From: Indioceanicola profundi
Lineage (GTDB): Bacteria; Pseudomonadota; Alphaproteobacteria; Azospirillales; Azospirillaceae
Direction of reading: 5' to 3'
NCBI RefSeq assembly: GCF_003568845.1
Contig: NZ_CP030126.1
Span: 534,501 to 598,500 of the forward strand
Length of the DNA: 64,000 nt
Shown here: positions 31,929-58,627 of the stretch, piece by piece
Layout of the letters: each line of letters starts with the position of its first letter
Numbering within the stretch: position 1 is the stretch's first letter
The notes under the pieces: generated by a model
What the model was told of the DNA's origin: nothing
Database searches by the model: none
Seen by the model: the letters and a program-made list of their open reading frames with translations, nothing else
Translations under genes and position numbers: made by a program

Positions 31929-33293
31929 CTAGAAGCGCAGGGTGAAGACCGTCCCGCCTTCCTCCGCCCGCGCCACGGCGATGCTGCCGCCATGGGCCAG
32001 CATGATCTGGCGGGCCAGGGAGAGGCCGACGCCGGACCCCTCGCGCTTGGTGGTGAAGAAGGGGACGAAAATCTTGTCCGCCACCTCCGGCGGGATGCCG
32101 GGGCCGTTATCGATGACCTGAAGGGCTACGCGCCCGCCCTCGTCCAGGAAGGCATTCATGCGTACGCAGGCATCCTCCTGCCCGGCCAACGCTTCCACCG
32201 CGTTCTTCAACAGATTGATCAGGACTTGGTCCAACAGATCGGGGTCCACCGCCATTTCCAGCGCCGGCGGAAGCACCAGCGTTTCGAACCGGATGCGCTT
32301 TTCCGCCAGCGCGGGGGCCATCAGGCGGCGCATGCGGTCCAGCACTTCCCGCACCTTGATCCGCTCCAGCGCCGGCTTCGGCACCTGGGTGAACTGGCGA
32401 TAGCGTTCGACGAAGCGCAGCAGCCCGTCGCTGCGGCGGGCCACGGTGTCGATGGCCTGGACGGCGTCTCCCATCTCCTCCGCCAGATCGGGGCGGTCGG
32501 CCACCTTCTCCGTCAGATCCTCCATGACCGCCTTGGCTGTGCGGGTGAGGGAGGAGACGGGGGTGAGGGAATTCATCATCTCATGGGTCAGGACCCGAAC
32601 CAGCTCCTGCCAAGCGCGCACCTCCGTCGCTTCCAGGTCCGCGCCGATGTTCTGAAGGGAGACCAGCAGCCGCGGTTCCCCGGCCAGGGTGAGCTGTGTG
32701 GCCGCCACCGTCATCTGCAGCGGCCCGCCGCCGACCCCGCCCGCGACGCGCAGCAGGGCGCGGCTTCCGGCTTTCAACTCGCGCAGCGAGTCGGCCACCG
32801 TCTTGCTTCCGTCCGCCAGACGGCGGTTCAGATCCTCCGGCCCCAGAAGGCGGCGGGCGGCATTGTTCAGCAGCTCAACCCGTCCACTGGGGAAGACCGC
32901 GGCAAGGGCCACCGGCACATGCTCCAGCAGGGCGTTCAGATATTCGGCCTGGCGTTCGGTATCGGCGCGGGTGGCCTTGAAGCGTTCCAGCACCGTAGTG
33001 AAACTGGCGCCCAGCTCATCGAAAGCGGAGCCCATGCCCCGCATGCCGAAGGTCTGGGAGAAATCCGAATGGGCAATGGCGGTCAGGAAGCGGGACAACT
33101 CCCGATTCGTCATCGTCACCTTGCGCAGCAATCCGCCGATCTGGACCAGGATGGCGATGCCCACCAGCAGCGATGTGGCGCGGTACTCCGTCGCTACCAG
33201 CAGCACGCCCAGCAGCATGGAAGAGAAGGCCAGAAGCGCCACCCGGACGGTGACGTTCAGCTCGAACCGCCGGGAGCCGATCCTAGAGCCCAT
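31929..33293 (-). CDS. Sensor histidine kinase (NtrY-like) of the ABC-efflux regulon
   Basis: A 454-residue membrane kinase. Two hydrophobic segments (about residues 14-34 and 38-56) lie close together with almost no periplasmic loop, so it probably senses a membrane or cytoplasmic signal. A PAS-like domain spans about 115-215. The H-box VLTHEMMNSLTPVSSL carries His237, and the ATPase domain shows LINLLKNAVEA, DNGPGIPPEV and GSGVGLSLARQI. Its start overlaps the end of the response-regulator gene by 11 bp, so the pair is translationally coupled. It should phosphorylate that regulator at Asp55. Confidence 0.9.
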   Translation of the reverse strand: MGSRIGSRRFELNVTVRVALLAFSSMLLGVLLVATEYRATSLLVGIAILVQIGGLLRKVTMTNRELSRFLTAIAHSDFSQTFGMRGMGSAFDELGASFTTVLERFKATRADTERQAEYLNALLEHVPVALAAVFPSGRVELLNNAARRLLGPEDLNRRLADGSKTVADSLRELKAGSRALLRVAGGVGGGPLQMTVAATQLTLAGEPRLLVSLQNIGADLEATEVRAWQELVRVLTHEMMNSLTPVSSLTRTAKAVMEDLTEKVADRPDLAEEMGDAVQAIDTVARRSDGLLRFVERYRQFTQVPKPALERIKVREVLDRMRRLMAPALAEKRIRFETLVLPPALEMAVDPDLLDQVLINLLKNAVEALAGQEDACVRMNAFLDEGGRVALQVIDNGPGIPPEVADKIFVPFFTTKREGSGVGLSLARQIMLAHGGSIAVARAEEGGTVFTLRF

Positions 33294-34716
33294 GCTTTTC
33301 CATCCGGCGGTACAGCGAAGTGCGGGTGATTCCCAACTCGTGCGCGGTGTGGCTGATATTGCCCTGGTGTTTCTCCAGCGCCCGTCGGATCACCTCCCGC
33401 TCTACCGCCTCCAGGTCGAAGGTGTCCAGATGCAGCCCGCCAGCCGGGCTGTCGGCATCGGTCGCCACGATGGCCGGGGAGTGTGCCACGGTCGCAGCGG
33501 CCGGCTGTCCGGCAGTGGAGGGGAGGGAGAAATCCTCCGCCTCCAGCACATCGCCGGCGGACAGGATCATCGCCCGCTCCACCGCATGGCGCAGGGCGCG
33601 CACATTGCCCGGCCAGCGATAGGACATCAGCCGGGCCAGAGCGTCGGCCGAGACCCGCTTGCGCGGCATGTTGTACTTGCGGGCATAGAGACCGATGAAA
33701 TGCTCCAGCAGCGTCGGGATGTCCTCCGGCCGGTCGCGCAGGGGTGGCAGGGTCAGCTCCACCGTGTTGATGCGGTACAGCAGATCCTGGCGGAACACAT
33801 CCTCTCGCCCCAACTGCTCCGGCGGCATGTTGGTGGCGCTGATCAGGCGGACATCGATGGGCATCGGCCGGGTTCCGCCCACCGGCACCACCTCCCGCCG
33901 CTCCAGCACCGTCAGCAGCTTTGCCTGGAGGTAGAGCGGCAGGTTCCCGATCTCGTCCAGGAACAGGGTGCCGCCATTGGCGGCCACCAGACGGCCGACC
34001 CGGTCCTCCTTGGCGTCGGTGAAGGCGCCCTTCCTGTGGCCGAACAGCTCGCTCTCGAACAGTGTCTCCGTCACCGCGCCGAGGTCGACGGAGAGGAAAA
34101 TCCTGTCCGCGCGGCTGGAGCGCCGGTGGATTTCTCGCGCGATCACCTCCTTGCCGGTGCCGTTCTCGCCAAGGATCAGCACATTTGCCTGAGTGGGGGC
34201 AGCCCGGTCGATGAGCTGGAAAACGCGCAGCATGGCGGGGGCGGTGCCGACGATGGCCTGCCCGGTTCCGTCCGCCGCGGTTGCCAGTTCCTTCGCGCGG
34301 GCATCCGCCGTCTGCGCCTCCCGCTTCGATGCGGTGAGCTTGAGGGCGGAGGAGAGGGTGGCCACCAGCCGCTCGTTCTGCCAGGGCTTCAGCACGAAGT
34401 CGGCCGCCCCCTGCTTCATCGCCTCCACCGCCGTGCCGACATCGCCATAGGCGGTGATCAGCACCACGGACAGCGTCGGATCGATCTCCACGATCCGCTT
34501 CAGCCATTGGAAGCCTTCGCGCCCCGTATTGGCGCCGATGGCGAAATTCATGTCCAGCAGGACGGCATCGAACTGCCCGTCCTTCAGCAATTGCGGGATG
34601 CGGTCGGGCCGCGATTCCGTGTGGCACTGGATGCCCTGGCGCTTCAGCAGCAGGCGTGCGGCGACGAGGATATCCTCATCATCATCGACGATCAGGACGC
34701 GTCCGGCTTCAGACAT
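33283..34716 (-). CDS. NtrC-family sigma-54-dependent response regulator of the ABC-efflux regulon
   Basis: A 477-residue regulator from ATG 34716 (MSEAGRVLIVDDDEDILVAA). The receiver has Asp11-13 and the phospho-acceptor Asp55 in VLLDMNFAIG. The AAA+ domain has Walker A GENGTGKE (183-190) and GTLFLDEIGNL. The sigma-54-contact loop reads GAFTDA (230-235) instead of GAFTGA. A Fis-type helix-turn-helix ends the protein (KHQGNISHTAHELGITRTSL). The gene is divergent from permease 1, and two copies of TGTCCG-N4-CGGACA lie 26-61 bp upstream of its start, suggesting autoregulation. Confidence 0.92.
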   Translation of the reverse strand: MSEAGRVLIVDDDEDILVAARLLLKRQGIQCHTESRPDRIPQLLKDGQFDAVLLDMNFAIGANTGREGFQWLKRIVEIDPTLSVVLITAYGDVGTAVEAMKQGAADFVLKPWQNERLVATLSSALKLTASKREAQTADARAKELATAADGTGQAIVGTAPAMLRVFQLIDRAAPTQANVLILGENGTGKEVIAREIHRRSSRADRIFLSVDLGAVTETLFESELFGHRKGAFTDAKEDRVGRLVAANGGTLFLDEIGNLPLYLQAKLLTVLERREVVPVGGTRPMPIDVRLISATNMPPEQLGREDVFRQDLLYRINTVELTLPPLRDRPEDIPTLLEHFIGLYARKYNMPRKRVSADALARLMSYRWPGNVRALRHAVERAMILSAGDVLEAEDFSLPSTAGQPAAATVAHSPAIVATDADSPAGGLHLDTFDLEAVEREVIRRALEKHQGNISHTAHELGITRTSLYRRMEKHGL

Positions 34717-34741: not shown

Positions 34742-34757
34742 TGTCCGGTTCCGGACA
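34742..34757. promoter_or_regulatory. Operator palindrome A1 (TGTCCG-N4-CGGACA)
   Basis: TGTCCGGTTCCGGACA is a perfect inverted repeat. The same arms recur at 37447 and 37473 upstream of the adaptor operon. Its centre is about 118 bp upstream of the start expected from the sigma-54 promoter at 34842 and 33 bp upstream of the divergent regulator start codon. Confidence 0.8.
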
Positions 34758-34761
34758 CAAC

Positions 34762-34777
34762 TGTCCGTAAACGTACA
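34762..34777. promoter_or_regulatory. Operator palindrome A2 (imperfect copy)
   Basis: TGTCCGTAAACGTACA matches the A1/B1/B2 pattern with one mismatch in the right arm. It is centred 20 bp (two helical turns) from A1 and about 98 bp upstream of the expected start. Confidence 0.65.
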
Positions 34778-34841: not shown

Positions 34842-34857
34842 TGGCGCGCGTCTTGCT
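34842..34857 (+). promoter_or_regulatory. Sigma-54 promoter for permease 1
   Basis: TGGCGCGCGTCTTGCT has the invariant GG (34843-34844) and GC (34855-34856) separated by exactly ten bases, close to TGGCACG-N4-TTGCW. Transcription would start near 34868, about 53 nt before permease 1. Paired NtrC-type operators lie upstream. Confidence 0.75.
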
Positions 34858-34920: not shown

Positions 34921-37371
34921 ATGATCCGGCACTATGCATTGATGGCGCTCCGCACGCTGGCCCGGCACAGGCTCTATGCGGCGATCAATCTGTTCGGATT
35001 GGCGGTCGGTCTGGCGGCGGCCCTGTTGATCCTGATCTATGTCCGCCACGAAACCTCGTACGAGCGCCACTTCACCCAGGCCGACCGTATCTACCGACTG
35101 GCGCAGGACCCGCGGGACGAGAGCCAGTCGGACGGTATCCGTCACCATCTGGCGTCCCAGCCCATGGCCGACATGATCCGCGGCGTCGGTGCATCGCTAG
35201 GGATCGAGGCGGTGAGCCGGGTGGAAAATGGCAATCTGATCCTCTCGGAAGGCGGGCCGCCGCTTTCGCAGAGCGTTGGCATCGTGGACCCGGAATTCCT
35301 GCGGATCTTCGATTTCGAGTTCATCGCGGGCGATCCGCGGAGCGCGCTGGCCACGCCGGACAGTCTGGTCCTTTCGGAGGCGGCGGCGCGCAAGTTCTTC
35401 GGAAGTAGGGAGGCGGTCGGGCGCATGCTGACCGCCCAGACCGGCGCCGTGCTGCGCGTGACCGCGGTGATCGCGGAGCCGCGCGGTCCAAGCCAGGTCT
35501 GGTTCGAGGCGCTGATGTCCACCAGTTCGCCCCTGATCGGCCCGCCGCAATGGATCAACAGCAACGGGCCGGTCTATATCCTGGCGTCGCCGGGCGTATC
35601 GGGAGCGGAACTGGAACGTCGCCTGGATGAGGTCATCCCGCCGCTTGTGCCCGGCGAGGTACGGGAGGACCAGGGCGAAATCCGCCTCGGCCTGGAGCCG
35701 CTGTCGGATCTCTATCTGCATTCCGGGCGCTGGACGAGCATGAACCAGCCTCCAGCCAATGCGGCAACGGTCTATGCCACCGCCGGCGTGGCCGTGTTGC
35801 TCCTCGGCATTGCGGCGATCAACTATACGAATCTGGCGACCGCTCGCGCCAGTCTGCGGACCCGCGAGGTCGGGCTGCGCAAGACGGTGGGGGCGAAACG
35901 GCGTCAGTTGATCGTCCAGTTCCTGGGCGAGTCCATCCTGGTAGCAGCCGGCGGATTGCTCCTCGCCCTGGTCCTGACCGAACTGATGGCGGAGCCCTTC
36001 GCCAGCCTTATCGGCATCAGGCTTTATTTCAGCCCCTGGACGGACCCGCTACTGCTCACCGGCGCCATCCTGCTGACGCTGGGCGTGGGCGTGGTGGGAG
36101 GCGCCTATCCCGCCCTTTATCTCTCCGGTATCCGGCCGGCGGCGGTGCTGCGGGCGGGGAAAGGCGGTGTCGGCGGGGCGGGACGGCTGCGCGCCGCCCT
36201 GGTGATCGTGCAGTTCGCCTGCGCCGTCGGGCTGGCCGCGGCCACGCTGATCGTCGTGCAGCAGACCCGCTACGCCACCACCGCCGAACTCGGCTTCGAC
36301 AAGGAGAACCGTCTGATCCTCAGCGGCATCCGGCATGAGCAGGTGCGGCTCCAGTTGGAACCGCTGAAGGACGAACTGCTGCGCATTCCCGGCGTCACGG
36401 GGGCAGCCGCCTCCTGGATGGTGCCCGGAGGGGCGGGAGCGCAGGGGCGGGAGGTCTATTTGCCCGGCACGCCGGACGGCGAACGAATGAACCCCGAGGT
36501 CTACCGGGTCGAGCATGGCTTCCTGGACGTTCTGGGTGTCCGCATGCTTGCCGGCCGCGGCTTCGATCGGGCCCGGGCTGAGGACGAGATGCGGTTCCCC
36601 GACGGGGTGGAAGGACCGCAGGTCTTCAGCACTGTCCTGAACGCCACGGCCGCACGCAACCTCGGCTTCGCTTCTCCGGAAGAGGCGCTAGGACAGATCC
36701 TCGACTTCAGTGATGACACGCCGGTGACGTCACGGCTGCGGGTCATCGGGGTGGTGGAGGATTTCCGCCCGCGCAATGCCCGCAACGCGATCCGCCCCAC
36801 GGTCTTCGTCGGCGGCGACCCGGTGTACCGCTACAACTTCCTGACCTTGCGGCTGGCGCCGGGAGCCGACCTGGATAGGGTTCTGACGCAGGTGGATGTC
36901 GTCTGGAGCCGCTTCGCGCCGGATATCCCCGTCGCCCGCAGCTTCCTGGACGAGTATATCGAGCGCATGTATGAGCGGGAGAAGCGGATCGCCGGAGTGC
37001 TGGGCGGCTTCGCCGCGCTGACCGTCGCCATCGCCTGTCTGGGTCTGTTCGCCCTCGCTGCGTTCGAGGCGGAACGGCGGACCAAGGAGATCGGTGTCCG
37101 CAAGGTCCTCGGGGCGACGGTGCTGGACATCGTGCGGCTGCTGGCCTGGCGCTTCTCCCGCCCGGTTCTGATCGCGAACCTCATCGCTTGGCCGGTGACG
37201 TGGTTCCTTGTGGCGGAGTGGCTGGGCGGGTTCGCCTACCGTATCGACGTGACGCCGCTGCCCTTCATCCTGGCCGGCGGCGGCGCGCTGCTGATCGGAT
37301 GGATCACGGTGGCCGGCCATGCCGCCCGTGTGGCCGCCCGCCCGCCGGTCCAGGCCTTGCGCTACGAGTAG
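34921..37371 (+). CDS. MacB/FtsX-type ABC transporter permease 1
   Basis: An 816-residue inner-membrane permease with two repeated halves. Each half has a membrane anchor, a large periplasmic MacB-type core domain and an FtsX domain of three membrane segments. The N-terminal anchor is INLFGLAVGLAAALLILIYV (about residues 22-41). FtsX 1 begins near residue 285 (TAGVAVLLLGIAAINYTNLA) and contains the coupling motif REVGLRKTVGAKRRQLI; FtsX 2 begins near 690 (RRTKEIGVRKVLGATVLDIV). It ends LRYE like its paralogues. Transcribed alone from its own sigma-54 promoter and closed by a strong terminator; its ATPase is probably the one encoded at 39133. Confidence 0.88.
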   Translation: MIRHYALMALRTLARHRLYAAINLFGLAVGLAAALLILIYVRHETSYERHFTQADRIYRLAQDPRDESQSDGIRHHLASQPMADMIRGVGASLGIEAVSRVENGNLILSEGGPPLSQSVGIVDPEFLRIFDFEFIAGDPRSALATPDSLVLSEAAARKFFGSREAVGRMLTAQTGAVLRVTAVIAEPRGPSQVWFEALMSTSSPLIGPPQWINSNGPVYILASPGVSGAELERRLDEVIPPLVPGEVREDQGEIRLGLEPLSDLYLHSGRWTSMNQPPANAATVYATAGVAVLLLGIAAINYTNLATARASLRTREVGLRKTVGAKRRQLIVQFLGESILVAAGGLLLALVLTELMAEPFASLIGIRLYFSPWTDPLLLTGAILLTLGVGVVGGAYPALYLSGIRPAAVLRAGKGGVGGAGRLRAALVIVQFACAVGLAAATLIVVQQTRYATTAELGFDKENRLILSGIRHEQVRLQLEPLKDELLRIPGVTGAAASWMVPGGAGAQGREVYLPGTPDGERMNPEVYRVEHGFLDVLGVRMLAGRGFDRARAEDEMRFPDGVEGPQVFSTVLNATAARNLGFASPEEALGQILDFSDDTPVTSRLRVIGVVEDFRPRNARNAIRPTVFVGGDPVYRYNFLTLRLAPGADLDRVLTQVDVVWSRFAPDIPVARSFLDEYIERMYEREKRIAGVLGGFAALTVAIACLGLFALAAFEAERRTKEIGVRKVLGATVLDIVRLLAWRFSRPVLIANLIAWPVTWFLVAEWLGGFAYRIDVTPLPFILAGGGALLIGWITVAGHAARVAARPPVQALRYE

Positions 37372-37399
37372 CCGTTCCCGACTGCCCAGGAAATCCTGG

Positions 37400-37433
37400 G
37401 GCGCCATGGCTTGACCATGGCGCCTCTTTTTTT
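37400..37433 (+). terminator. Intrinsic terminator after permease 1
   Basis: GGCGCCATGG (37400-37409) pairs perfectly with CCATGGCGCC (37415-37424), loop CTTGA, followed by TCTTTTTTT. It isolates permease 1 from the adaptor operon. Confidence 0.92.
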
Positions 37434-37446
37434 GTCCCCTTGCAGG

Positions 37447-37462
37447 TGTCCGCAATCGGACA
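37447..37462. promoter_or_regulatory. Operator palindrome B1 (TGTCCG-N4-CGGACA)
   Basis: TGTCCGCAATCGGACA is a perfect inverted repeat with the same arms as A1. Its centre is about 122 bp upstream of the expected start of the sigma-54 promoter at 37551. Confidence 0.82.
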
Positions 37463-37472
37463 TGCAGGTAAG

Positions 37473-37488
37473 TGTCCGATTGCGGACA
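37473..37488. promoter_or_regulatory. Operator palindrome B2 (TGTCCG-N4-CGGACA)
   Basis: TGTCCGATTGCGGACA is a perfect inverted repeat, centred 26 bp from B1 and about 96 bp upstream of the expected start. A degenerate third copy with an intact CGGACA half lies at 37490-37505. Confidence 0.82.
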
Positions 37489-37550
37489 GCGTTCATTTCC
37501 GGACAGTGACGCTCGGCCCGCAACCTCAAGAATTCCGTCACTTCCAGTTC

Positions 37551-37566
37551 TGGCACGTGGATTGCC
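37551..37566 (+). promoter_or_regulatory. Sigma-54 promoter of the adaptor-ATPase-permease operon
   Basis: TGGCACGTGGATTGCC is a near-perfect -24/-12 element: TGGCAC, five bases, TTGC, with GG and GC ten bases apart. Transcription would start near 37577, about 51 nt upstream of the small ORF at 37628. Confidence 0.88.
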
Positions 37567-37627
37567 ATGAAACTCGCGACAACGGGCGGATTGCCCGGAC
37601 CTGTGTGCGGGACCCATGAGGACGACC

Positions 37628-37780
37628 ATGAACACTGCCCCTGAAGCGCACCCGGACAGAGCACAGCGCCGCACCCTGTGGGAGCGGTTGGATGACGGAA
37701 TCGCTTCCGTGAATCCCGATTTCTGGCTCGCGGGGGCCGTGTTCGCGGTGATCGTGCCATGGCTCAACCGCCTCGCTTGA
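37628..37780 (+). CDS. Possible 50-residue single-span membrane peptide
   Basis: ATG 37628 to TGA 37780. The sequence starts MNTAPEAHPDRAQRRTLWER, followed by a polar stretch, one hydrophobic span (FWLAGAVFAVIVPWLNRLA, about residues 32-50) and the stop. It is the first open frame after the sigma-54 promoter, with GAGGACG just upstream of the start, and ends 29 bp before the adaptor start. The layout suggests a regulatory or structural micropeptide of the transporter, but a translated leader without function is equally possible. Confidence 0.5.
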   Translation: MNTAPEAHPDRAQRRTLWERLDDGIASVNPDFWLAGAVFAVIVPWLNRLA

Positions 37781-37809: not shown

Positions 37810-39072
37810 ATGGGAATGGATCGGAAGATCGAGAAGGCCGGCTGGACCAAGCACAAGCGCTGGATCGGTGCTGCCGCGGTGGCGCTGCTTCTGGCGGGCG
37901 GCGGCTATTACGCGGCGTCCGGCATGGGAGGCGGGCAGACCATCCGCATGGCGCAGGAGCGGCTGTCGGTCGCGGCCGTGCAGGAAGGCCAGTTCGAGGA
38001 CTTCATCCCCGTCCGCGGCGCTGTGGAGCCGCTGACCAGCATTTTCCTGGACGCCAGCGAAGGTGGCCGGGTCGAGCGCCGTCTGGTGGAGCCGGGCCAG
38101 CCGGTCAAGGCCGGCCAGCCGCTGGTTGAGTTCTCCAACACCCAGCTCCAGCTCCAGGTGCTGGGCAACGAGGTGCAGGTGGTGGAGCAGCAGAACCAGC
38201 TCCGATCCCTGGAAATCTCGCTGGAGAGCACCCGCCTGTCCAACAAGACGGCGCTGGTGCAGGTCGAGTACGAGATCGTCCGGCTGGGCAGGGAGCTGGA
38301 GCGCCGCTCCACCCTGGTGAAGACCTCTGCCGTATCCGAACGGGAGTACCAGGACACCCGCGACGAGCTTGATTATTACAAGAACCGCCGTGCCGTCCTG
38401 CTGGAGACGGTGAGCACCACCGACCGCATGCGGGCCGAGCAGTATGACCAGCTCGCCAAGTCCACGGCCAGCCTGGAGCAGCAGCTTGAGATCATGCGCC
38501 GCTCGCTGGACAATCTCACGGTCCGTGCGCCGGTGGATGGCATCCTGACCGTGCTGGACGCCGAGATCGGCCAGAACAAGACCCGCGGGGAGCAGATCGG
38601 CCGCATCGACCGCACCGACGGCTTCAAGGTCGTCGCCCAGGTGGACGAGTTCTACCTCTCGCGCCTCGAGGTCGGGCAGTCGGCCGAGGCCGCCATCGGT
38701 TCCGGCAGCTACAGGCTGACCGTGGCAAAGATCTACCCGCAGGTGCGGGACGGCCAGTTCCGGGTGGACCTGGAATTCGGAGACGAGAAGCCGGCCGGCA
38801 TCCGGCCGGGCCAGACGCTGCAGATGCGCTTGCGGCTGGGGGCCACCTCCACCGCGCTGCTGATCCCGAACGGCGGCTTTTATCAGGATACCGGCGGCTC
38901 CTGGATTTTCGTGGTGGACCCGTCCGGTGAATTCGCCACCAAGCGCAACATCAAGGTGGGCCGCCGCAACACCCAGGTGATCGAGGTGGAGGAGGGGCTG
39001 GCTCCCGGCGAGCGGGTCATCACCTCGGCCTATGGAGACATGGTCCGCATGGACCGCATCCAGTTCAACTGA
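37810..39072 (+). CDS. Periplasmic adaptor (HlyD/MacA-type membrane-fusion protein)
   Basis: A 420-residue adaptor from ATG 37810, preceded by GGAAGGA. A basic start (MGMDRKIEKAGWTKHKRWIG) and one membrane span (about residues 19-37) anchor it. The lipoyl-like half-motifs (VEPGQPVKAGQPLVEFSN; TVRAPVDGILTVLDAEIGQN) flank a coiled-coil hairpin of about residues 115-230. A beta-barrel and membrane-proximal domain follow (VDEFYLSRLEVGQSAEA). It should bridge the ABC permease to an outer-membrane channel; no TolC-type gene is in the window. Confidence 0.9.
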   Translation: MGMDRKIEKAGWTKHKRWIGAAAVALLLAGGGYYAASGMGGGQTIRMAQERLSVAAVQEGQFEDFIPVRGAVEPLTSIFLDASEGGRVERRLVEPGQPVKAGQPLVEFSNTQLQLQVLGNEVQVVEQQNQLRSLEISLESTRLSNKTALVQVEYEIVRLGRELERRSTLVKTSAVSEREYQDTRDELDYYKNRRAVLLETVSTTDRMRAEQYDQLAKSTASLEQQLEIMRRSLDNLTVRAPVDGILTVLDAEIGQNKTRGEQIGRIDRTDGFKVVAQVDEFYLSRLEVGQSAEAAIGSGSYRLTVAKIYPQVRDGQFRVDLEFGDEKPAGIRPGQTLQMRLRLGATSTALLIPNGGFYQDTGGSWIFVVDPSGEFATKRNIKVGRRNTQVIEVEEGLAPGERVITSAYGDMVRMDRIQFN

Positions 39073-39132: not shown

Positions 39133-39813
<681 letters not shown>

Positions 39814-39877: not shown

Positions 39878-42367
39878 ATGTTCCGCAACTACGTTACCGT
39901 CGCCCTGCGCAATCTGGTCAAGCACCGGCTCTACTCCGCGATCAACATCGTGGGGCTGGCGGTAGGGCTTGCAGCCTGCGTCCTGATCCTCGTCTTCGTG
40001 CGCAACGAGCTCAGCTACGACCGGTTCTTCACCGGCCATGAGCGGCTCTATCAGGTCGCGATCACGGCCAACACTCCCGGCCGGCAGCCGGAAAAGACCA
40101 GCATGACCATGCTGCCCTTCGCCCGCGCCATGAAGGAGAGCTTCCCGGAGGTAGAGGAGACCACCCGCATCGTGCGGCAGCGCTCCGTCCTCCGGCGGGA
40201 CGAGACCCAGTTCTTCGAACTGGTGATCCTCGCCGATGCTTCGATGTTCCGGATGTTCGACTTCCCCTTCGTGGCGGGCGACCGGGAAACCTCCCTGGAT
40301 CAGCCGACCGGCATCGTGCTCAGCGAGCGTATGGCGCGGAAATATTTCGGGGAGCGGTCCGCACTCGGCCAGACCATCACCATCGACAATCAGCATGAGC
40401 TGGTGGTCACCGGTGTGTTCAAGGACCTGCCTTCCAACACGCAGTTCGACTTCGACATCGTCATGCCCATCAACTCCGTCGCGGCACGCAATCTGCGCGC
40501 GCTGGAGGAGAACTGGGGGGCGATCTGCTGCAAGACCTATGTGCGGCTGGCCGAGGGTGCCGACATCGAGGATGTGCGTGAGCGGCTTCTTCCCTGGATG
40601 AAGCGGACCGCCCCCACGCTGAACGGCCCGAACGGCAGCGTCAATCTGGGCGATGCATTCATTCCCAGCCTGCGCCCGGTGGCCGATGTCCATATGGAAC
40701 CGCTTCTGGGCGACATGCGCCCAGGCACCAGCAAGGCTGAAATCTATACCTTCAGCGCCGTGGCGCTCCTGGTCGTGGCCATCGCCAGCATCAACTTCAT
40801 GAATCTCGCGACGGCCCGCGCCACCCAACGCGCACGGGAAGTCAGCGTGCGCAAGGTGGTGGGGGCCAGCCGCACCCAGATCGTGGCGCAGTTCATCGGC
40901 GAATCCGTGCTGCTGACCCTGATCGGGCTGCTGCTGTCGCTGGCGCTGGTGGAGCTGGCGCTGCCGGCCTACAGCGCCTTCCTGCAGAAGGATCTCGCCT
41001 TCGATTACAGCGATCCGGCTCTGCTGGCGATCCTGCTCGGTCTGGCCTTCTTCGTCGGCATCGCGGGCGGCGCATATCCGGCCTTCTTCCTGTCCGGCTT
41101 TAACCCGGCCAAGGTGCTGAAGGGCGCTTCCAGCGGAGTGGGCGGGGGTAGCGGCCGGCTGCGCATGATCCTGGTGGTGGTGCAGTTCTCCATCTCCATC
41201 GGGTTGATGGTCGCCACTGCCGTGGTCTATGGGCAGCTCCTCTTTGCCCAGAACAAGAACCTCGGTTTCCAGCGGGACAATCTGGTTGTCCTGAGCGGAA
41301 CCGGCCGTCCCGGCGTGCGGGACAATCTGAACGGTCTTCTGGAAACGCTGCGCCAGGACCCGCGCATCGTCGGCGCGGCCGCCACCAACATCATTCCCGG
41401 CGAGATGGATGAGAGCAATACCAACATCCGCCTGCCGGGCGGCGACCCGACGGAGCAGATCGTCATTCGCAACGACACGGTCGGGCCGGAATTCGTTTCC
41501 ACCATGGGCATGCGGATCATTGCCGGCCGCGACTTCGACAAGTCCCGCGGCACGGATGTGATCCAGCGGCCGGACTGGCAGCTCCGCGGCGAACCCACGC
41601 CCGAGGGAACCCAGCCTTTCTCCCAGCCGGGTGCGGCGCTGATCAACGAGTCCGCCGTGCGCCGCCTCGGCTACGCGTCGCCGGAAGCGGCCATCGGCCA
41701 GACTTTCACGGCGGGCGACAGCGAGGTCAGTTCGCTCGACCTGACCATCATCGGCGTGGTGGAGGATTTCCACTTCCGCTCCATCCACGATCCCATCGCG
41801 CCTGGCTTCTTCATCACCGACAACGGATACAGCAGCGATGCCGTGATCCGGGTGCGCGGCGACGATGTGCGGGGCGCGCTGGAGGCGATCGACACGGCTT
41901 GGCGCAATGCCAACCCGTCGGTGCCGGTGCAGCGGGCCTTCCTGGACGACCAGCTTCAGGCCCTCTATGAGCGGGAGCAGCAGACCGGCACCCTGTTCGC
42001 CGCCTTCTCCGGCCTCGCCATCGTGATCGCTTGCCTCGGCCTCTTCGGGCTGGCCAGCTTCACGGCGGAGCGGCGGACCAAGGAGATCGGGCTCCGCAAG
42101 GTGCTCGGCGCCAGCGTGACCGACATCGTGCGGCTGCTGGTCTGGCAGTTCTCCAAGCCGGTGCTGGTGGCGAACCTGATTGCATGGCCGCTGGCCTGGT
42201 ACGGCATGTCCCGCTGGCTGGAGAGCTTCACCTACCGCATCGACCTGAACCCGCTGCCCTTCCTGCTGGCGGGAGCGGCGGCTCTGGCCATCGCCTGGGC
42301 CACGGTTGGCCTGCATGCCGCCAAGGTCGCGCGGTCCAAGCCGGTCACGGCGTTGCGGTACGAGTAA
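39878..42367 (+). CDS. MacB/FtsX-type ABC transporter permease 2
   Basis: An 829-residue permease from ATG 39878 (MFRNYVTVALRNLVKHRLYS), with the same duplicated architecture as permease 1. The anchor is INIVGLAVGLAACVLILVFV, FtsX 1 begins with IASINFMNLATARATQRARE around residue 305, and FtsX 2 (RRTKEIGLRKVLGASVTDIV) around residue 735. The first periplasmic core has a Cys pair (GAICCK near residue 210) not seen in the others, possibly for a disulfide. It follows the ATPase by 64 bp. It differs from permeases 1, 3 and 4 mainly in the periplasmic domains. Confidence 0.88.
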   Translation: MFRNYVTVALRNLVKHRLYSAINIVGLAVGLAACVLILVFVRNELSYDRFFTGHERLYQVAITANTPGRQPEKTSMTMLPFARAMKESFPEVEETTRIVRQRSVLRRDETQFFELVILADASMFRMFDFPFVAGDRETSLDQPTGIVLSERMARKYFGERSALGQTITIDNQHELVVTGVFKDLPSNTQFDFDIVMPINSVAARNLRALEENWGAICCKTYVRLAEGADIEDVRERLLPWMKRTAPTLNGPNGSVNLGDAFIPSLRPVADVHMEPLLGDMRPGTSKAEIYTFSAVALLVVAIASINFMNLATARATQRAREVSVRKVVGASRTQIVAQFIGESVLLTLIGLLLSLALVELALPAYSAFLQKDLAFDYSDPALLAILLGLAFFVGIAGGAYPAFFLSGFNPAKVLKGASSGVGGGSGRLRMILVVVQFSISIGLMVATAVVYGQLLFAQNKNLGFQRDNLVVLSGTGRPGVRDNLNGLLETLRQDPRIVGAAATNIIPGEMDESNTNIRLPGGDPTEQIVIRNDTVGPEFVSTMGMRIIAGRDFDKSRGTDVIQRPDWQLRGEPTPEGTQPFSQPGAALINESAVRRLGYASPEAAIGQTFTAGDSEVSSLDLTIIGVVEDFHFRSIHDPIAPGFFITDNGYSSDAVIRVRGDDVRGALEAIDTAWRNANPSVPVQRAFLDDQLQALYEREQQTGTLFAAFSGLAIVIACLGLFGLASFTAERRTKEIGLRKVLGASVTDIVRLLVWQFSKPVLVANLIAWPLAWYGMSRWLESFTYRIDLNPLPFLLAGAAALAIAWATVGLHAAKVARSKPVTALRYE

Positions 42368-42435: not shown

Positions 42436-44895
42436 ATGCTTAGGAATTGGATTACAGTGACCCTGCGCAATCTGGCGCGTCATCGTCTTTATGCGGCGGT
42501 GAACATACTTGGCCTGGCGGTAGGGCTTGCTGCCTGCCTGCTGATCGCCGTGCTGGTCCGGCATGAAACCAGTTTCGATGGGTTTCATGCGAACGCGGAC
42601 CGGATCGTCCGGGTGAACCGGACGGAATTCATCGCAGAGCGCGCTCCCCAGACCAGCGGCACCACCGCCATGCCGGTCGGCCCGACTCTGGCCGATGCAT
42701 ATCCCGAAGTGGAGATGATGGTGCGGGTGGCCCGCTTCGGCGCTATCATCCAGACCGATGGAGGCGTGTTCCGGGAACGGGTATTCCGGACCGATCCCGG
42801 CTATTTCCAACTGATCGACGCGGTCTTTCTGCACGGGGATGCGTCCCTGGCGTTGGCAGAGCGGGACAGCGCCGTGCTGACCCAATCCAAGGCGCGCAAA
42901 TATTTCGGTGATGTGGACCCTGTCGGCCGCACGCTGACGCTGACCACCGGGCGCAGTTGGCGCATTACCGGCGTGATAGCCGACCCGCCCGTGAATACGC
43001 GGTTCGATGCGGGCATCATCACCCACTTGGACAGCAGCTTCAGCGACAGCGCCGACCAGTGGTATCGGGAAAGGGTTGATGGATGGTCCAACCACTGGCT
43101 CACCACCTACCTGCTGCTCCGTCCCGGCGCCGACCTCGCGGCCATGCAGGCCCGCATGGAGGATGTGCTGGCGGAAACCCCTGATTATCAGCGGCCCGAC
43201 ACGCCCGGACTGGGCTACAGCTTCACGCTTTCCTTCCAACCCTTGGCGGAGATCAACACCAATCCGCAGGGCGGTGAGCCAGGAACGCCGACCACGGTCA
43301 TCCATGCGCTGATCGCGGTTGGGGGGCTGATCCTGCTAGTGGCGGGCATCAATTTCGTGAACCTTACGACCGCGCGTGCCAGCCTGCGCGCCCGCGAGGT
43401 TGCCGTCCGCAAGACGCTGGGCGCTCGCCGCGCCAGCATCATCGCCCAGTTCCTGGGGGAATCGGTGATGCTGTCGTTGTTCGCCGGGCTGGTCGCCCTG
43501 GCGCTGGTGGAGCTCAGCCTGCCCCTGGTTCTTCAAGGACTGGAACTACCAGCCCTTGCAGGGCCGGCGGAATCATTGGAGCTGCTGACCTACGCCTTGC
43601 CGTTTCTGGTGCTCCTCGGTGTGGCGGCGGGGCTGTATCCGGCCTTCATCCTCTCCGCCTTCGCTCCCGCGTCCGCGCTGAAGGGGGGCGGCACCGCGCC
43701 GGGCGGTGGAAAGCTCCGCACCGTGCTGGTCGTGGTGCAGTTCGGCATCGCCATCGCGCTGGTGATTGGCACCACCGTCATCCTGACGCAGACCCGCTAC
43801 GCCAGCAGCCAGCGCCTCGGCTTCGATCAGGAGAATCTGGTGCTGCTCAGGGGCCTGGACCTGGATGAGGTACGTCCGCAACGCGAAGCGCTGATAGAGC
43901 GGATCGGCCGTCTGCCGGGCGTGGTGACCGCCGGCCTCACCTCCTGGGCGCCGGCGGACCCCTCCGAGCGGACCACCACCTTCCGCTTCCCGGGTGAGGA
44001 GAGGGCGGTCACCTTGCGCAACGAGCCGGTGGATTTCGGTTATCTGGAGGCGCTGGGCGCACGGCTGCTGGCCGGCCGCATCTTCGACCGCGCCCGGCCG
44101 GTGGACCTGTTCCAGGAGTCAGGGCAGACCAATGGCCGCTTCGATGGCACCGCGGTGGTCACTGCCGGGATTCTGCCGGTGCTGGGCGTCGCCACGCCGG
44201 AAGAGGCACTGGGGCGGCCTATGATCTATGGAAGCACCGTGACCGACGGGGTGGAGCGGCACCATATCGTCACCATCGTCGGCGTTGTGGAGGATATCCA
44301 ATTCTCCTCCGCGCGGGACGCGCTGGTGCCCACGGTCTTCATGGTGGATCGCACGCAGCTGGACGTATTGGCCATCCGGCTCGCGGCCAGCACGGGGCCG
44401 GACACGTTGGCCGCCATCGATGCAATGTGGCGGGACGTCGTTCCGAACGTGCCGGTGCGCCGCGACTTCCTGGATGAGCGCGTCCGCAGGCTTTATGCAG
44501 CGGAGGCGCGGCAGGCAACCGTACTGGCGGCCTTTGCCGGCCTTACCATCGTAATCGCCTGTCTTGGCCTCTTCGGCCTTGCCGCCTTCACGGCGGAGCG
44601 GCGGACGAAGGAGATCGGTGTGCGCAAGGTGTTGGGCGCCCGCACGCGCGACATCGTCCGCCTGCTGGTCTGGCAGTTCTCCCGTCCGGTGCTGCTGGCG
44701 AACCTGATCGCCTGGCCGGTTGCATGGATTGCGATGGAGCACTGGCTGAACGGCTTCGCCATCCGCATCGACCTCGGCCCCGGCCCGTTCCTGGCGGCGG
44801 GAGCCGGCGCCCTGGTGATCGCCTGGGCCACCGTGGCCGGCCACGCGGCGCGGGTGGCGCGGCGCAGACCGGTCACCGCTTTACGGTATGAGTGA
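42436..44895 (+). CDS. MacB/FtsX-type ABC transporter permease 3
   Basis: An 819-residue permease from ATG 42436 (MLRNWITVTLRNLARHRLYA), preceded by GAGGAGGGGCGGG. Duplicated core-plus-FtsX architecture: anchor VNILGLAVGLAACLLIAVLV; FtsX 1 with REVAVRKTLGARRASIIAQF near residue 325; FtsX 2 with RRTKEIGVRKVLGARTRDIV near residue 725. Its sequence aligns without gaps to permease 4 around both stop codons of that gene, showing Trp at each place (TSWAPADPSE; VIAWATVAGH). It is the best guide to the ancestral permease 4. Confidence 0.88.
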   Translation: MLRNWITVTLRNLARHRLYAAVNILGLAVGLAACLLIAVLVRHETSFDGFHANADRIVRVNRTEFIAERAPQTSGTTAMPVGPTLADAYPEVEMMVRVARFGAIIQTDGGVFRERVFRTDPGYFQLIDAVFLHGDASLALAERDSAVLTQSKARKYFGDVDPVGRTLTLTTGRSWRITGVIADPPVNTRFDAGIITHLDSSFSDSADQWYRERVDGWSNHWLTTYLLLRPGADLAAMQARMEDVLAETPDYQRPDTPGLGYSFTLSFQPLAEINTNPQGGEPGTPTTVIHALIAVGGLILLVAGINFVNLTTARASLRAREVAVRKTLGARRASIIAQFLGESVMLSLFAGLVALALVELSLPLVLQGLELPALAGPAESLELLTYALPFLVLLGVAAGLYPAFILSAFAPASALKGGGTAPGGGKLRTVLVVVQFGIAIALVIGTTVILTQTRYASSQRLGFDQENLVLLRGLDLDEVRPQREALIERIGRLPGVVTAGLTSWAPADPSERTTTFRFPGEERAVTLRNEPVDFGYLEALGARLLAGRIFDRARPVDLFQESGQTNGRFDGTAVVTAGILPVLGVATPEEALGRPMIYGSTVTDGVERHHIVTIVGVVEDIQFSSARDALVPTVFMVDRTQLDVLAIRLAASTGPDTLAAIDAMWRDVVPNVPVRRDFLDERVRRLYAAEARQATVLAAFAGLTIVIACLGLFGLAAFTAERRTKEIGVRKVLGARTRDIVRLLVWQFSRPVLLANLIAWPVAWIAMEHWLNGFAIRIDLGPGPFLAAGAGALVIAWATVAGHAARVARRRPVTALRYE

Positions 44896-44952: not shown

Positions 44953-47376
44953 GTGCTGCGCGACTGGTTGACGGTGTGCTTGCGGGGACTGATCCGGCAC
45001 AGGCTCTACACAACAATCAACATAATGGGCCTCGCCGTCGGACTTGCCGCGGCACTGCTGATCGGGACCTATGTGCGTCACGAGCTGTCCTATGACAGTA
45101 TGTATGCGGATGGCGACCGCATCTATCGGATCACTCGGATCGAGCATCGTTCCGGCCAGCAGCCCCGGCCCGTCGGACCGGTGTCGTACCCTGTCGGCGA
45201 GTTGCTACAGCGGGAGCGCCCGGAGTTCGAACATCTGGCCTTGATCAGTTGGTTCCCCGTGGTCTTGCAGCATGAAGGCGAGCCGATCCGGGAAATCATG
45301 CACATTGCCAGTCCGGGCTTCTTCCAGATTTTCGACTTGCCGTTCCTGAAGGGCGATCCGGTGACCGCCCTTGCCGAGCCATATGGGCTGGTGCTTACAG
45401 AAAAGATGGCCCGTAAGTATTTCGGCGATGCGGACCCGGTGGGGCAAAGCCTGTCCATTGCTCGCGGCGAAAGCTTCAGAGTTACCGGAGTCGTCGCCGA
45501 CCCTCCGACGAACAGCAGCATCCAGTTCGATATGGTCGTGTCCCTCGCGACGCCGTTCCCGGAATTCGAGAAGCCACGGACGCTCTGGTTCAATAATTGG
45601 CTGAACGTCTTTGTCCGCTTGCATCCTGGCGAGTCGGCCAACGCGGTGGAAGCGGAGCTAGGCGATATGCTCCAGCGCCACGTTCCGAACTACGAACCGC
45701 CGGGCAAGGCGAGTTCCACCTTCACGCTGCATATGCAGCCATTGGCCGATTTCCACCTGGGACCTTTCCCAGGCCTGGATTATTCCGGACGCAGGACACT
45801 GGCGGCGTTCGCCGCTGTAGCAGGCCTGATCCTGATCGTCGCCGGCATCAACTTCGTGAACTTGTCCACCGCCCGGGCCACGCTGCGCGCGAGGGAAGTG
45901 GCGCTCCGCAAGACACTGGGCGCTTCCCGCGGGGGTCTTGTCCTGCGTTTCATGGGGGAGGCGGTGCTGCTGACGGCGTTGGCCGGCGTCGTGGCCATGG
46001 CGCTGGCCGAACTTCTGCTGCCGCTGCTGACCGACGCGCTCAACATCAGGTTGGAAGAGGATTTCGCCAGCCCGTTGTCGCAGCTCTTGACGCTGGCAGG
46101 TCTGGTGCTTGTGATCGGAATCCTCTCCGGGATCTATCCAGCTTTCCTCCTCACCCGCCACAATCCGGCTGACACCATGCGCGGCGGTTCGGCCCCCCAA
46201 GGGTCGGGACGTCTGCGGACGGCGCTCGTCGTCGGGCAGTTCGCCGTGGCGATCGGATTGTCGACCGCATCCCTGGTGATCCTAGCCCAGACCCGCCACG
46301 CCGGTTCCGCACAGTTGGGTTTTGACCGCGAGAACGTGGTCCTGTGGCGCGGATTGAACAATCCCGCGGTTGCAGGGGGCTGGCAGGTCTTCCGGGATCG
46401 CGTGACGGAGCTGCCGGGCGTCGTCAGCGCCGCTGCTGTGCGGTAGGTTCCAGGCGACGGGTCCGACTCCTCCATCATAGTGCGCCATCCGAATGGATCG
46501 GCCGAGCTCAGCCTCAGGATGGAGGCGGTCGATACGACCTATCTTCAAACATTGGGCATTCCGCTTGTCGCCGGGCGCGGGTTCGAGGAGGGGCGGTCAG
46601 CCGACATACTGGTCGATTCCAAGGGGCCGCAGAAAGACGCGGCCAATGTCATTTTGTCGGAATCGGCGGTCCGACTGTTGGGCTGGAGATCGCCGGAGGC
46701 GGCGCTGGGCGGCACCGTCCTGGTGCCGGAAGAGGGGCAGAACATCACGCTGACGGTGATCGGCGTCATTCCCGACCTGCAGTTCTATTCCGCGCGCCAG
46801 CCCCACGCGCCCACGATCTTTACCGTCCAGAAGCAGGGCATATCCACCCTGGCTGTCCGGGTAAGGGGCGGGGCAGCGCCCGAGGTGCATGGCTTGATCG
46901 ACGCGGTCTGGCGGGAGCTGTTTACCGACTTGCCCGTTAACCGCGAGTTCCTGGACGAACGGATCGAGCGCATCCATCGGGCGGAGTTGCGGCAAGGAAT
47001 CGTGCTCGGAGCATTTGCGGTTCTGACGGTTGGAATCGGCTGCCTCGGCCTGTTCGGTCTGGCGGCGTTCACCACCGAGCGGCGCAGCCGGGAGATCGGG
47101 ATACGCAAGGTGATGGGGGCCCGCACCGCTGATATTGTCAGGCTTCTGGTCTGGCAGTTCAGCCGGCCGGTGGCGGCGGCTTGCCTGATCGCGTGGCCGA
47201 TCGCGTGGCTGGGGCTGGAGGATTGGCTTTCCGGCTTCGTGAACCGGATCGACCTCAATCCCCTCTTCTTCCTGGCTGTCGGCATTGCCGCCATGCTTAT
47301 TGCCTAGGTGACGGTTGCCGGTCATGCGGCCCATGTTGCTCGCCAGAAGCCGATCCATGCCCTGCGCCATGAGTGA
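44953..47376 (+). pseudogene. MacB/FtsX-type ABC transporter permease 4, interrupted by two amber codons
   Basis: GTG 44953 (MLRDWLTVCLRGLIRHRLYT), with GGAAGGAGAGGG upstream, to TGA 47376: 808 codons, the length of its sisters, with no frameshift. In-frame TAG codons occur at 46444-46446 (after AAAVR) and 47305-47307 (after AMLIA). Both align with Trp in permease 3, so each is one G-to-A change from TGG. Without readthrough the product is a 497-residue N-terminal half with one FtsX domain. An internal restart near 46480 would yield the C-terminal part lacking its last 22 residues. The intact frame between the stops suggests recent inactivation, sequence error or readthrough. Confidence 0.8.
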
Positions 47377-57220: not shown

Positions 57221-58627
57221 TCACGCGGTCGCCCGTTCTTCCGTGCCCGGCGGCGGTACCGGCACGCCGTCCTCGGAATATTCCTTCAGCTTGTTGCGCA
57301 GGGTGCGGATGGAGATGCCGAGGATGTTCGCGGCATGGGTCCGGTTGCCCAGCGTATGGCGCAGCGTGTCGATGATCAGATCCCGCTCCACCTCCGCCAC
57401 CGTCTTGCCGACCAGCGCCTGGGTGGGCGTGCCGGCGGTTCCGTTCGGGGCGGACGTTGCGGCAGGGGAAGCCGCCGCCGTGGTGGCGCGGGCGGCCACT
57501 GTGCCCAGGGCGGGCGCCGCGGCCGGTTCCGCGCCGGTGAGCAGGATGGCGTCGGGGCCGATCTCGTTGCCGCGGCTCAGCAGCACGGCGCGGTGGAGGG
57601 TATTCTCCAGCTCGCGCACATTGCCGCGCCAGTGATGGGCCTGGAGCATGGCCATGGCCTGTGCGCCGATGGTCCGCTCCGGCAGGCCGTTGGCCTCGGA
57701 ATATTTGGCGGCGAAATGCTGGGCCAGCACGGGAATGTCCTGCGGACGCTCCCGCAAGGGCGGCAGGTTCAGCGTGACGACGTTGAGGCGGAAATAGAGG
57801 TCCTCGCGGAAGCGTCCGCCCCGCACCTCGGACATCATGTCCCGGTTGGAGGTGGCGAGTACGCGGATATCAACCTTGACCGGCGTGGTGCCGCCGACCC
57901 GGTCGATCACCCGCTCCTGCAGGGCCCGCAGCAGCTTGGCCTGGAGCCGGATGTCCATCTCGGAAATTTCGTCCAGCAGCAGCGTGCCGCCGTTGGCTTC
58001 CTCGAACTTGCCGATGCGCCGCGCCACGGCGCCGGTGAAGGCGCCCTTCTCATGGCCGAACAGCTCCGATTCCAGCAGGTTCTCCGGAATCGCGGCGCAG
58101 TTGACGGAGACGAAGGGCGCATTGGCCCGCCGGCTCTTCCGGTGGATGAAGCGGCTGACAACCTCCTTACCGGTCCCGCTCTCGCCCGTTATCAGGACGG
58201 AAGCGTCGCTGGGCGCGATCTGCTCCGCCAGCCGCAATGTGCCCTGCATTGCCGGATCGCGGCTGATGACGGCGTGGCTCTCCTCCGCGACCGCCTCCAG
58301 CACCGCTGCGATCAGGTTCGCATCGGGGGGGAGGGGGATGTATTCCTTGGCCCCGGCGCGGATCGCCCGTACGGCGGCCTGCGCGTCGGTGCCCACGCCG
58401 CAGGCCACGACGGGAACGGCGAAACGCTCCGCCTTCAGAGCATCCACCAGCCGGGCAACGTCCATCTTGACGTCGACCATGACGAGATCGGCGCCCTGGC
58501 CGGTGCGCAGCGCGTTCATCGCCCCGTCGATGCTGTCGATGTGGGCTACCTTGGCGCCCTTCTGCAAGGCGATCCTTCCGGCTGCCGTAATGTAGCCTTC
58601 CAGGGTGCCGACGATCAGGAGACGCAT
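57221..58627 (-). CDS. flbD: FlbD, sigma-54-dependent flagellar regulator
   Basis: A 468-residue NtrC-family activator. The N-terminal receiver-like domain lacks the usual acidic pocket at its start (MRLLIVGTLEGY), as in Caulobacter FlbD, so control by phosphorylation is doubtful. The AAA+ domain has GESGTGKE (148-155), canonical GAFTGA (195-200) and GTLLLDEISEMD. An Ala/Pro-rich linker (about 375-410) precedes the Fis-type helix-turn-helix (GNRTHAANILGISIRTLRNK). It should activate late flagellar genes and possibly repress early ones. Confidence 0.93.
   Translation of the reverse strand: MRLLIVGTLEGYITAAGRIALQKGAKVAHIDSIDGAMNALRTGQGADLVMVDVKMDVARLVDALKAERFAVPVVACGVGTDAQAAVRAIRAGAKEYIPLPPDANLIAAVLEAVAEESHAVISRDPAMQGTLRLAEQIAPSDASVLITGESGTGKEVVSRFIHRKSRRANAPFVSVNCAAIPENLLESELFGHEKGAFTGAVARRIGKFEEANGGTLLLDEISEMDIRLQAKLLRALQERVIDRVGGTTPVKVDIRVLATSNRDMMSEVRGGRFREDLYFRLNVVTLNLPPLRERPQDIPVLAQHFAAKYSEANGLPERTIGAQAMAMLQAHHWRGNVRELENTLHRAVLLSRGNEIGPDAILLTGAEPAAAPALGTVAARATTAAASPAATSAPNGTAGTPTQALVGKTVAEVERDLIIDTLRHTLGNRTHAANILGISIRTLRNKLKEYSEDGVPVPPPGTEERATA

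Follow-up and report, generated by a model that had tools for sequence, protein, structure and literature searches.

Gene content and regulatory modules of the exporter locus

The window, which is the whole stretch of 64,000 nucleotides of the Indioceanicola profundi genome that was analysed, carries the genes of a histidine kinase and an NtrC-type response regulator, both divergent from the gene of permease 1, and downstream of permease 1 an operon for a small peptide, an adaptor, an ABC ATPase and further permeases (Table 1). The scores with the darobactin export models all lie below the NCBIfam cut-offs (DarC, 209.6 of 450; DarD, 281 of 375; DarB, 148.9 of 700). The permeases match the ADOP model TIGR03434 over its full length with 275-362 bits against a cut-off of 622.3 and are therefore related to that family but not members of it by the model. 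Permeases 2 and 3 are intact; permease 5 contains two in-frame stop codons (46444-46446 and 47305-47307) and is either a pseudogene or the result of an assembly or sequence error. The genome has an rpoN gene (425 bits, cut-off 277), and an Rfam scan at the locus gave no match above the gathering threshold. A second NtrC-type regulator-like frame of the window (57278-58624, minus strand), 35% identical to the regulator, is not linked to TGTCCG sites.

Table 1. Genes and regulatory features of the exporter locus (window positions)
Feature	Position	Strand	Description
Histidine kinase	31929..33293	-	cognate kinase; two TM helices, very short periplasmic loop (hydropathy)
Response regulator	33283..34716	-	NtrC-type; REC + AAA+ (Sigma54_activat) + Fis HTH; GAFTDA for GAFTGA
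Module 1, operator	34742..34757	.	perfect dyad, 25 bp upstream of regulator start codon
Module 1, second operator	34762..34777	.	TGTCCG-TAAA-CGTACA, one arm mismatch
Module 1, sigma-54 promoter	34842..34856	+	TGGCGCGCGTCTTGC
Permease 1	34921..37371	+	MacB_PCD + FtsX
Intrinsic terminator of permease 1	37398..37434	+	12-bp stem 37398-37426, 9 GC pairs, T-run
Operator 1	37447..37462	.	TGTCCGCAATCGGACA, perfect dyad TGTCCG-CAAT-CGGACA (sequence, genome scan)
Operator 2	37473..37488	.	TGTCCGATTGCGGACA, perfect dyad TGTCCG-ATTG-CGGACA (sequence, genome scan)
Operator 3	37490..37505	.	CGTTCATTTCCGGACA, degenerate (sequence, alignment of orthologous promoters)
Sigma-54 promoter	37551..37565	+	TGGCACGTGGATTGC, 0 mismatches to TGGCACN5TTGC
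Small peptide	37628..37780	+	50 aa, single TM, conserved, first in operon; no Pfam/NCBIfam match
Periplasmic adaptor	37810..39072	+	HlyD/RND-MFP type; nearest named model DarC, below cut-off
ABC ATPase	39133..39813	+	MacB/LolD class; nearest named model DarD, below cut-off
Permease 2	39878..42367	+	MacB_PCD + FtsX, ADOP-like
Permease 3	42436..44895	+	same family as permease 2
Permease 5	44953..47373	+	permease 2 family, last in cluster; two in-frame stops

The regulatory module of the adaptor operon (37434-37627) is insulated from read-through by the terminator of permease 1. Operator 2 is the reverse complement of operator 1, and the centres of the two sites lie 70.5 and 96.5 bp, respectively, upstream of the T at -24, the former being the most frequent position in the module family. 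With the transcription start predicted at about 37577, the recomputed distances from the centres of operators 1 and 2 to the start are 122.5 and 96.5 bp, and the leader of 51 nt runs to the small ORF rather than to the adaptor gene. The copy upstream of permease 1 (module 1) has a promoter that reads TGGCGC instead of TGGCAC; its operator centres lie 118.5 and 98.5 bp from the predicted start (72.5 and 92.5 bp from the -24 T), and its leader is 53 nt long. Because one of its dyads is situated 25 bp upstream of the start codon of the regulator, it is likely to be an autoregulatory site as well, and the regulator gene is probably controlled by its own product.

An earlier note on this DNA had described two perfect palindromes, a degenerate third and a sigma-54 promoter behind the terminator of permease 1, all of which are found in the sequence; the operator-to-start distances and leader lengths that it gave for both modules are correct, and its argument that two copies of matching geometry make chance very unlikely holds. 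The arrangement is a regulatory module with enhancer-like operators and a sigma-54 promoter. The promoter element ends one base earlier than claimed, at 37565 instead of 37566. The third site is degenerate, as described, yet it is not noise, since at 53.5 bp from the -24 T it is aligned with the operator nearest to the promoter in the orthologous sequences. The module does precede the adaptor operon, but the first gene of this operon, the conserved 50-aa membrane peptide, had been missed.

Further targets and distribution of the module

In the 64-kb window, the 16-mer is matched with at most three mismatches five times against 0.66 expected, a number reached in none of 100 shuffles. Pattern searches over the 5.37-Mb genome, run together with a control pattern, detected six perfect TGTCCGN4CGGACA dyads, whereas the control had a single match. 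Only three places carry the paired pattern, namely module 1, the module of the adaptor operon and C1:237192-237224, all at transporter genes of the system, and the control yielded none; the scatter of random pairs that would have spoken against the earlier note is thus not seen. The sixth perfect dyad (C2:510316) lies inside the coding ORF of a kinase and was dismissed as a chance match. Dyads with one or two mismatches hardly exceed the control (449 versus 420), and degenerate sites alone were therefore left out as evidence.

The module at C1:237192-237224, which precedes another, distant MacB/ADOP-like permease of the same family, adds a third member to the regulon; its sigma-54 element (CGGCCTGGTCCTTGC) is weaker, with CGGCCT at -24. 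The fourth target (C1:2790371) is a small-peptide gene. This gene (C1:2790456) was found by a search with a profile of the small peptides of the relatives, and its upstream region, read only thereafter, contains a perfect sigma-54 promoter (TGGCACGGCGGTTGC) and an operator cluster (TGCCCGATTCCGGACA-GTGTCCG). As the gene was found first by protein homology, its promoter is an independent check on the regulon. The two-promoter regulon proposed earlier is accordingly too small: by their sequences, at least four promoters of the genome carry the module, i.e., those of permease 1, the small-ORF/adaptor operon, the permease at C1:237192 and the peptide gene at C1:2790371.

Among the relatives searched, 17 genomes have an ortholog of the regulator. 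The paired module is present in 14 of these 17 and in none of the 17 genomes without the ortholog, with a Fisher p of about 1e-6 that is indicative only, because the genomes are related. For 16 of the 17 orthologs the motif immediately precedes the regulator gene, and it is found at none of 12 other sigma-54 regulators of the relatives. When ten orthologous adaptor promoters were aligned, the invariant columns were essentially the dyad arms and TGGCA-N6-TTGC only. Operators 2 and 3 match the pair of the relatives, and operator 1 is therefore an extra upstream site in this genome. In the relatives, the module also precedes a secreted-looking S41 peptidase (L067, L070, L072 and L082; PF03572 was scanned in L070, and the other three were assigned by similar N-termini), of which no ortholog was found in the genome of I. 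profundi.

A GTDB-wide scan for the pair together with a -24/-12 element returned 62 loci. At 38 of them a regulator homolog is present, or an adaptor or permease gene starts within 600 bp downstream, or both; these loci include Niveispirillum, Nitrospirillum, Roseateles/Pelomonas, Massilia, Pseudoduganella, Janthinobacterium, Chitinimonas, Sphingomonas, Tannerella, Coprenecus and Chitinophaga. The pattern is permissive, and a sizeable part of the 62 matches (e.g., L091, L097, L099, L101, L103 and L140) look like chance. The full module is found at related exporters in Burkholderiales, Sphingomonadales and Bacteroidota, adjoining regulators with G[A/S]FTDA. It lies directly before an outer-membrane efflux (TolC-type) gene in Tannerella (L108) and in Sphingosinicella (L118) before pcm, behind which an outer-membrane efflux gene follows, indicating that the outer-membrane, third part of the tripartite exporter joins the regulon in other phyla; pcm also follows the module at L144 and L149. 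At five loci (L071, L081, L090, L094 and L115) an operator and a sigma-54 element are placed where a histidine-kinase gene and engB converge; no ORF is evident behind them, and they might drive a small RNA.

In 68 non-redundant modules, the operator centres cluster near 50, 61, 71, 82 and 92 bp from the -24 T with a best period of 10.4 bp, the significance of which is overstated by the over-representation of Roseateles and Azospirillaceae. Pairs spaced by 17 bp place their second site near 54, outside this series, and the operators of the adaptor operon (70.5/96.5) and of module 1 (72.5/92.5) fit it broadly. With enhancers this close to the promoters and in phase, contact may be made over a tight loop.

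Small peptides, regulator and proposed mechanism

In the relatives, several modules precede ORFs of 45-55 aa whose C-terminus forms a TM helix and which frequently stand in tandem groups of two or three; they have no match in Pfam or NCBIfam. In Azospirillaceae, these tail-anchored peptides make up a multicopy family behind the module. At one locus (L075, G001 C2:174700-177000), three tandem copies of a module-peptide pair within about 2 kb likely reflect recent local amplification. The adaptor-linked peptides (Family A), including that at 37628-37780, are under purifying selection (dN/dS of about 0.2-0.5), and the tandem copies are less constrained. Besides the peptide at 37628-37780, the profile search of the genome of I. 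profundi recovered C1:2790456. The family occurs in 14 of the 57 genomes searched, namely in each of the 12 that have the regulator and in two that do not (G002 and G022). A TGGCA-type sigma-54 element lies upstream at all 30 peptide loci inspected, whereas TGTCCG operators accompany it only in regulator-bearing genomes; in G002 and G022 the sigma-54 promoters of the peptides are kept and the operators are absent. This contrast is the cleanest natural control for the link between regulator and operators.

A sub-branch of the peptides that has no operators takes, in three genera, the position of first gene ahead of pspA and pspC, which points to a role in membrane stress. In G000, a family peptide of 65 aa (C1:1072231-1072496; L163:1501 onward) is the first gene, preceded by a perfect sigma-54 promoter and followed by pspA and pspC, an order also seen in G009 (L216) and G002 (L218). 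Another family peptide (G000 C1:147231-147429; L157/L210) follows a perfect sigma-54 promoter that has no TGTCCG operator, and presumably therefore uses another enhancer-binding protein.

The regulator (33283-34716), which we propose from its genomic association as the protein that binds the TGTCCG-N4-CGGACA operators, has GAFTDA in place of the canonical GAFTGA loop. All module-linked regulators with a readable loop have G[A/S]FTDA and, as far as the locus covers their C-terminus, share the ending NIS-x-(A/T)A...LYR(R/K)..KHG(L/I); the 12 other sigma-54 regulators of the relatives have GAFTGA. Two regulator-like matches with GAFTGA are weaker and lie at loci without an exporter. None of the NCBIfam equivalogs PrsR, AtoC, NtrC and ZraR reaches its cut-off with the regulator (AtoC, 365 versus 714). 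The change from G to D in the loop that contacts sigma-54 could weaken this contact. GAFTDA has been listed as a natural variant in Desulfovibrio, and loop variants of this kind are held to keep their function (PMC4641369), so that we read GAFTDA as the mark of a subfamily rather than as a ground for exclusion. For VfmH, another GAFTDA regulator, sigma-54 was not recovered in a pull-down, and its sigma-54 competence was stated to be open (PMC10714721). That GAFTDA regulators are associated here with consensus sigma-54 promoters speaks for their working with sigma-54.

Sequence and comparative data show the modules, how they are conserved, that they co-occur with the regulator and which genes they precede, and we consider it highly probable that a sigma-54 promoter and a tandem-dyad enhancer, bound by the adjacent NtrC-type regulator, drive a regulon of exporters and peptides. 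We infer binding, phosphorylation and looping, the nature of the signal, the functions of exporter and peptides, and that a GAFTDA protein uses sigma-54. The kinase, whose two TM helices are joined by hardly any periplasmic part in an intramembrane-sensing-like architecture, would sense the state of the membrane or of the transporter and phosphorylate the adjacent regulator. The phosphorylated regulator would assemble on the phased 16-bp dyads, which lie on one face of the helix about 50-95 bp upstream of -24, so that its AAA+ oligomer could contact the sigma-54 RNA polymerase over a short loop. One transcript for the 50-aa membrane peptide, the adaptor, the ABC ATPase and several MacB/ADOP-like permeases would be turned on, and the same regulator would control permease 1, the permease at C1:237192, the peptide gene at C1:2790371 and probably its own gene. 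The product would be a tripartite MacB-like exporter with tail-anchored small membrane peptides, made in an envelope-stress-type response, in which the peptides may act on the exporter as modulators or serve to protect the membrane.

The link between regulator and operators is suggested by co-occurrence and proximity among relatives that are not independent of each other, and the dyads might instead be operators of another regulator encoded elsewhere, e.g., a repressor, with the adjacent two-component system using other sites. The shape of the dyads would suit many dimeric regulators, and three regulator-bearing genomes do not have the strict paired pattern. However, this reading is improbable given that the motif co-occurs with the regulator ortholog (14/17 versus 0/17), precedes its gene in 16 of 17 orthologs, is paired with it again in Burkholderiales, Sphingomonadales and Chitinimonas, and is absent where peptides and sigma-54 promoter persist without the regulator; in addition, a repressor would need no helical phase relative to a sigma-54 promoter. 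Far less credible still is a hairpin in RNA or DNA, i.e., a terminator or attenuator formed by the mirror-image dyads instead of protein sites. The two dyads are reverse complements, and a terminator scan does score 37447-37488 as a 17-bp stem, but they are situated between a strong terminator and the predicted start, and their distance to the promoter is conserved. Moreover, the central four bases in the relatives are mostly non-complementary, so that no long stem is formed while the arms are invariant. We rejected the hairpin because the predicted start is downstream of it and the stem is not conserved.

A different question is what the exporter and the peptides do. They could form a bacteriocin- or RiPP-like secretion system, with the small ORFs as exported substrates in a production and immunity circuit, since the closest named models of adaptor and ATPase are DarC and DarD of darobactin export, the peptides vary and occur in multiple, tandem copies, and an S41 peptidase stands under the same module in relatives. 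We regard this as unlikely: all Dar models score far below their cut-offs, no gene for a maturation enzyme was noticed among those of the operon, a TM helix forms the C-terminus of the peptides, and the sub-branch that leads the psp operon in three genera speaks for a membrane-stress role. This estimate concerns function only and adds to the one given for the mechanism of the module.

Relation to known systems and implications

All component types of the system except the peptides are known; as a whole, it matches none of the named systems compared. Like the NtrC, AtoC and ZraR regulons, it combines a REC-AAA+-Fis HTH regulator, an AtoS-like kinase, paired dyads and TGGCAC-N5-TTGC, but it differs from them by GAFTDA/GSFTDA in place of GAFTGA and by the operator TGTCCG-N4-CGGACA. 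PrsR of the PrsK/PrsR system (PEP-CTERM) is a sigma-54 response regulator of the same overall type; the match to its model (TIGR02915, 350 bits) is below the cut-off of 502.6, and the targets here are exporters and membrane peptides. The exporter resembles DarBCD and MacAB-TolC in having an adaptor, a separate ATPase and a MacB_PCD/FtsX permease, with OEP (TolC-type) genes accompanying the module in Sphingosinicella and Tannerella, but it has several paralogous ADOP-like permeases and an ATPase that, unlike in MacB, is unfused. In the Bce-type modules of Bacillota, a two-TM, near-loopless kinase is likewise encoded beside an FtsX-family exporter, a likeness that is a functional analogy only. 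Bce modules use an OmpR-type regulator, whereas the system described here has an NtrC-type regulator, a sigma-54 promoter and a Gram-negative tripartite exporter. The Psp response is also sigma-54 driven and comprises membrane-localised small proteins, and a homologous peptide is the first gene before pspA-pspC. In contrast to Psp, the exporter regulon has a two-component regulator and TGTCCG operators, which the psp promoter of the same genome does not carry.

The best reading of the system is a sigma-54-dependent two-component regulon of exporters and small membrane peptides of the envelope-stress type. We lean, if only slightly, towards an undescribed sigma-54 two-component response shared across phyla, in which G[A/S]FTDA regulators and paired TGTCCG-N4-CGGACA enhancers would join MacB/ADOP-like tripartite exporters with the new multicopy family of tail-anchored peptides. 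In this reading the peptides would be general envelope-stress small proteins under sigma-54 control, because their sub-branch also leads the psp operon. No description of the TGTCCG operator or its regulon was found in the literature searched, the coverage of which excludes most subscription papers.

These results suggest that GAFTDA regulators act with sigma-54, the point that is open for VfmH (PMC10714721). They provide a DNA signature by which, in several phyla, the targets of a signalling family not yet characterised can be predicted and regulons read from genomes. They also expose a family of small membrane peptides that is absent from Pfam, and whose promoters tie the control of exporters to the phage-shock response.
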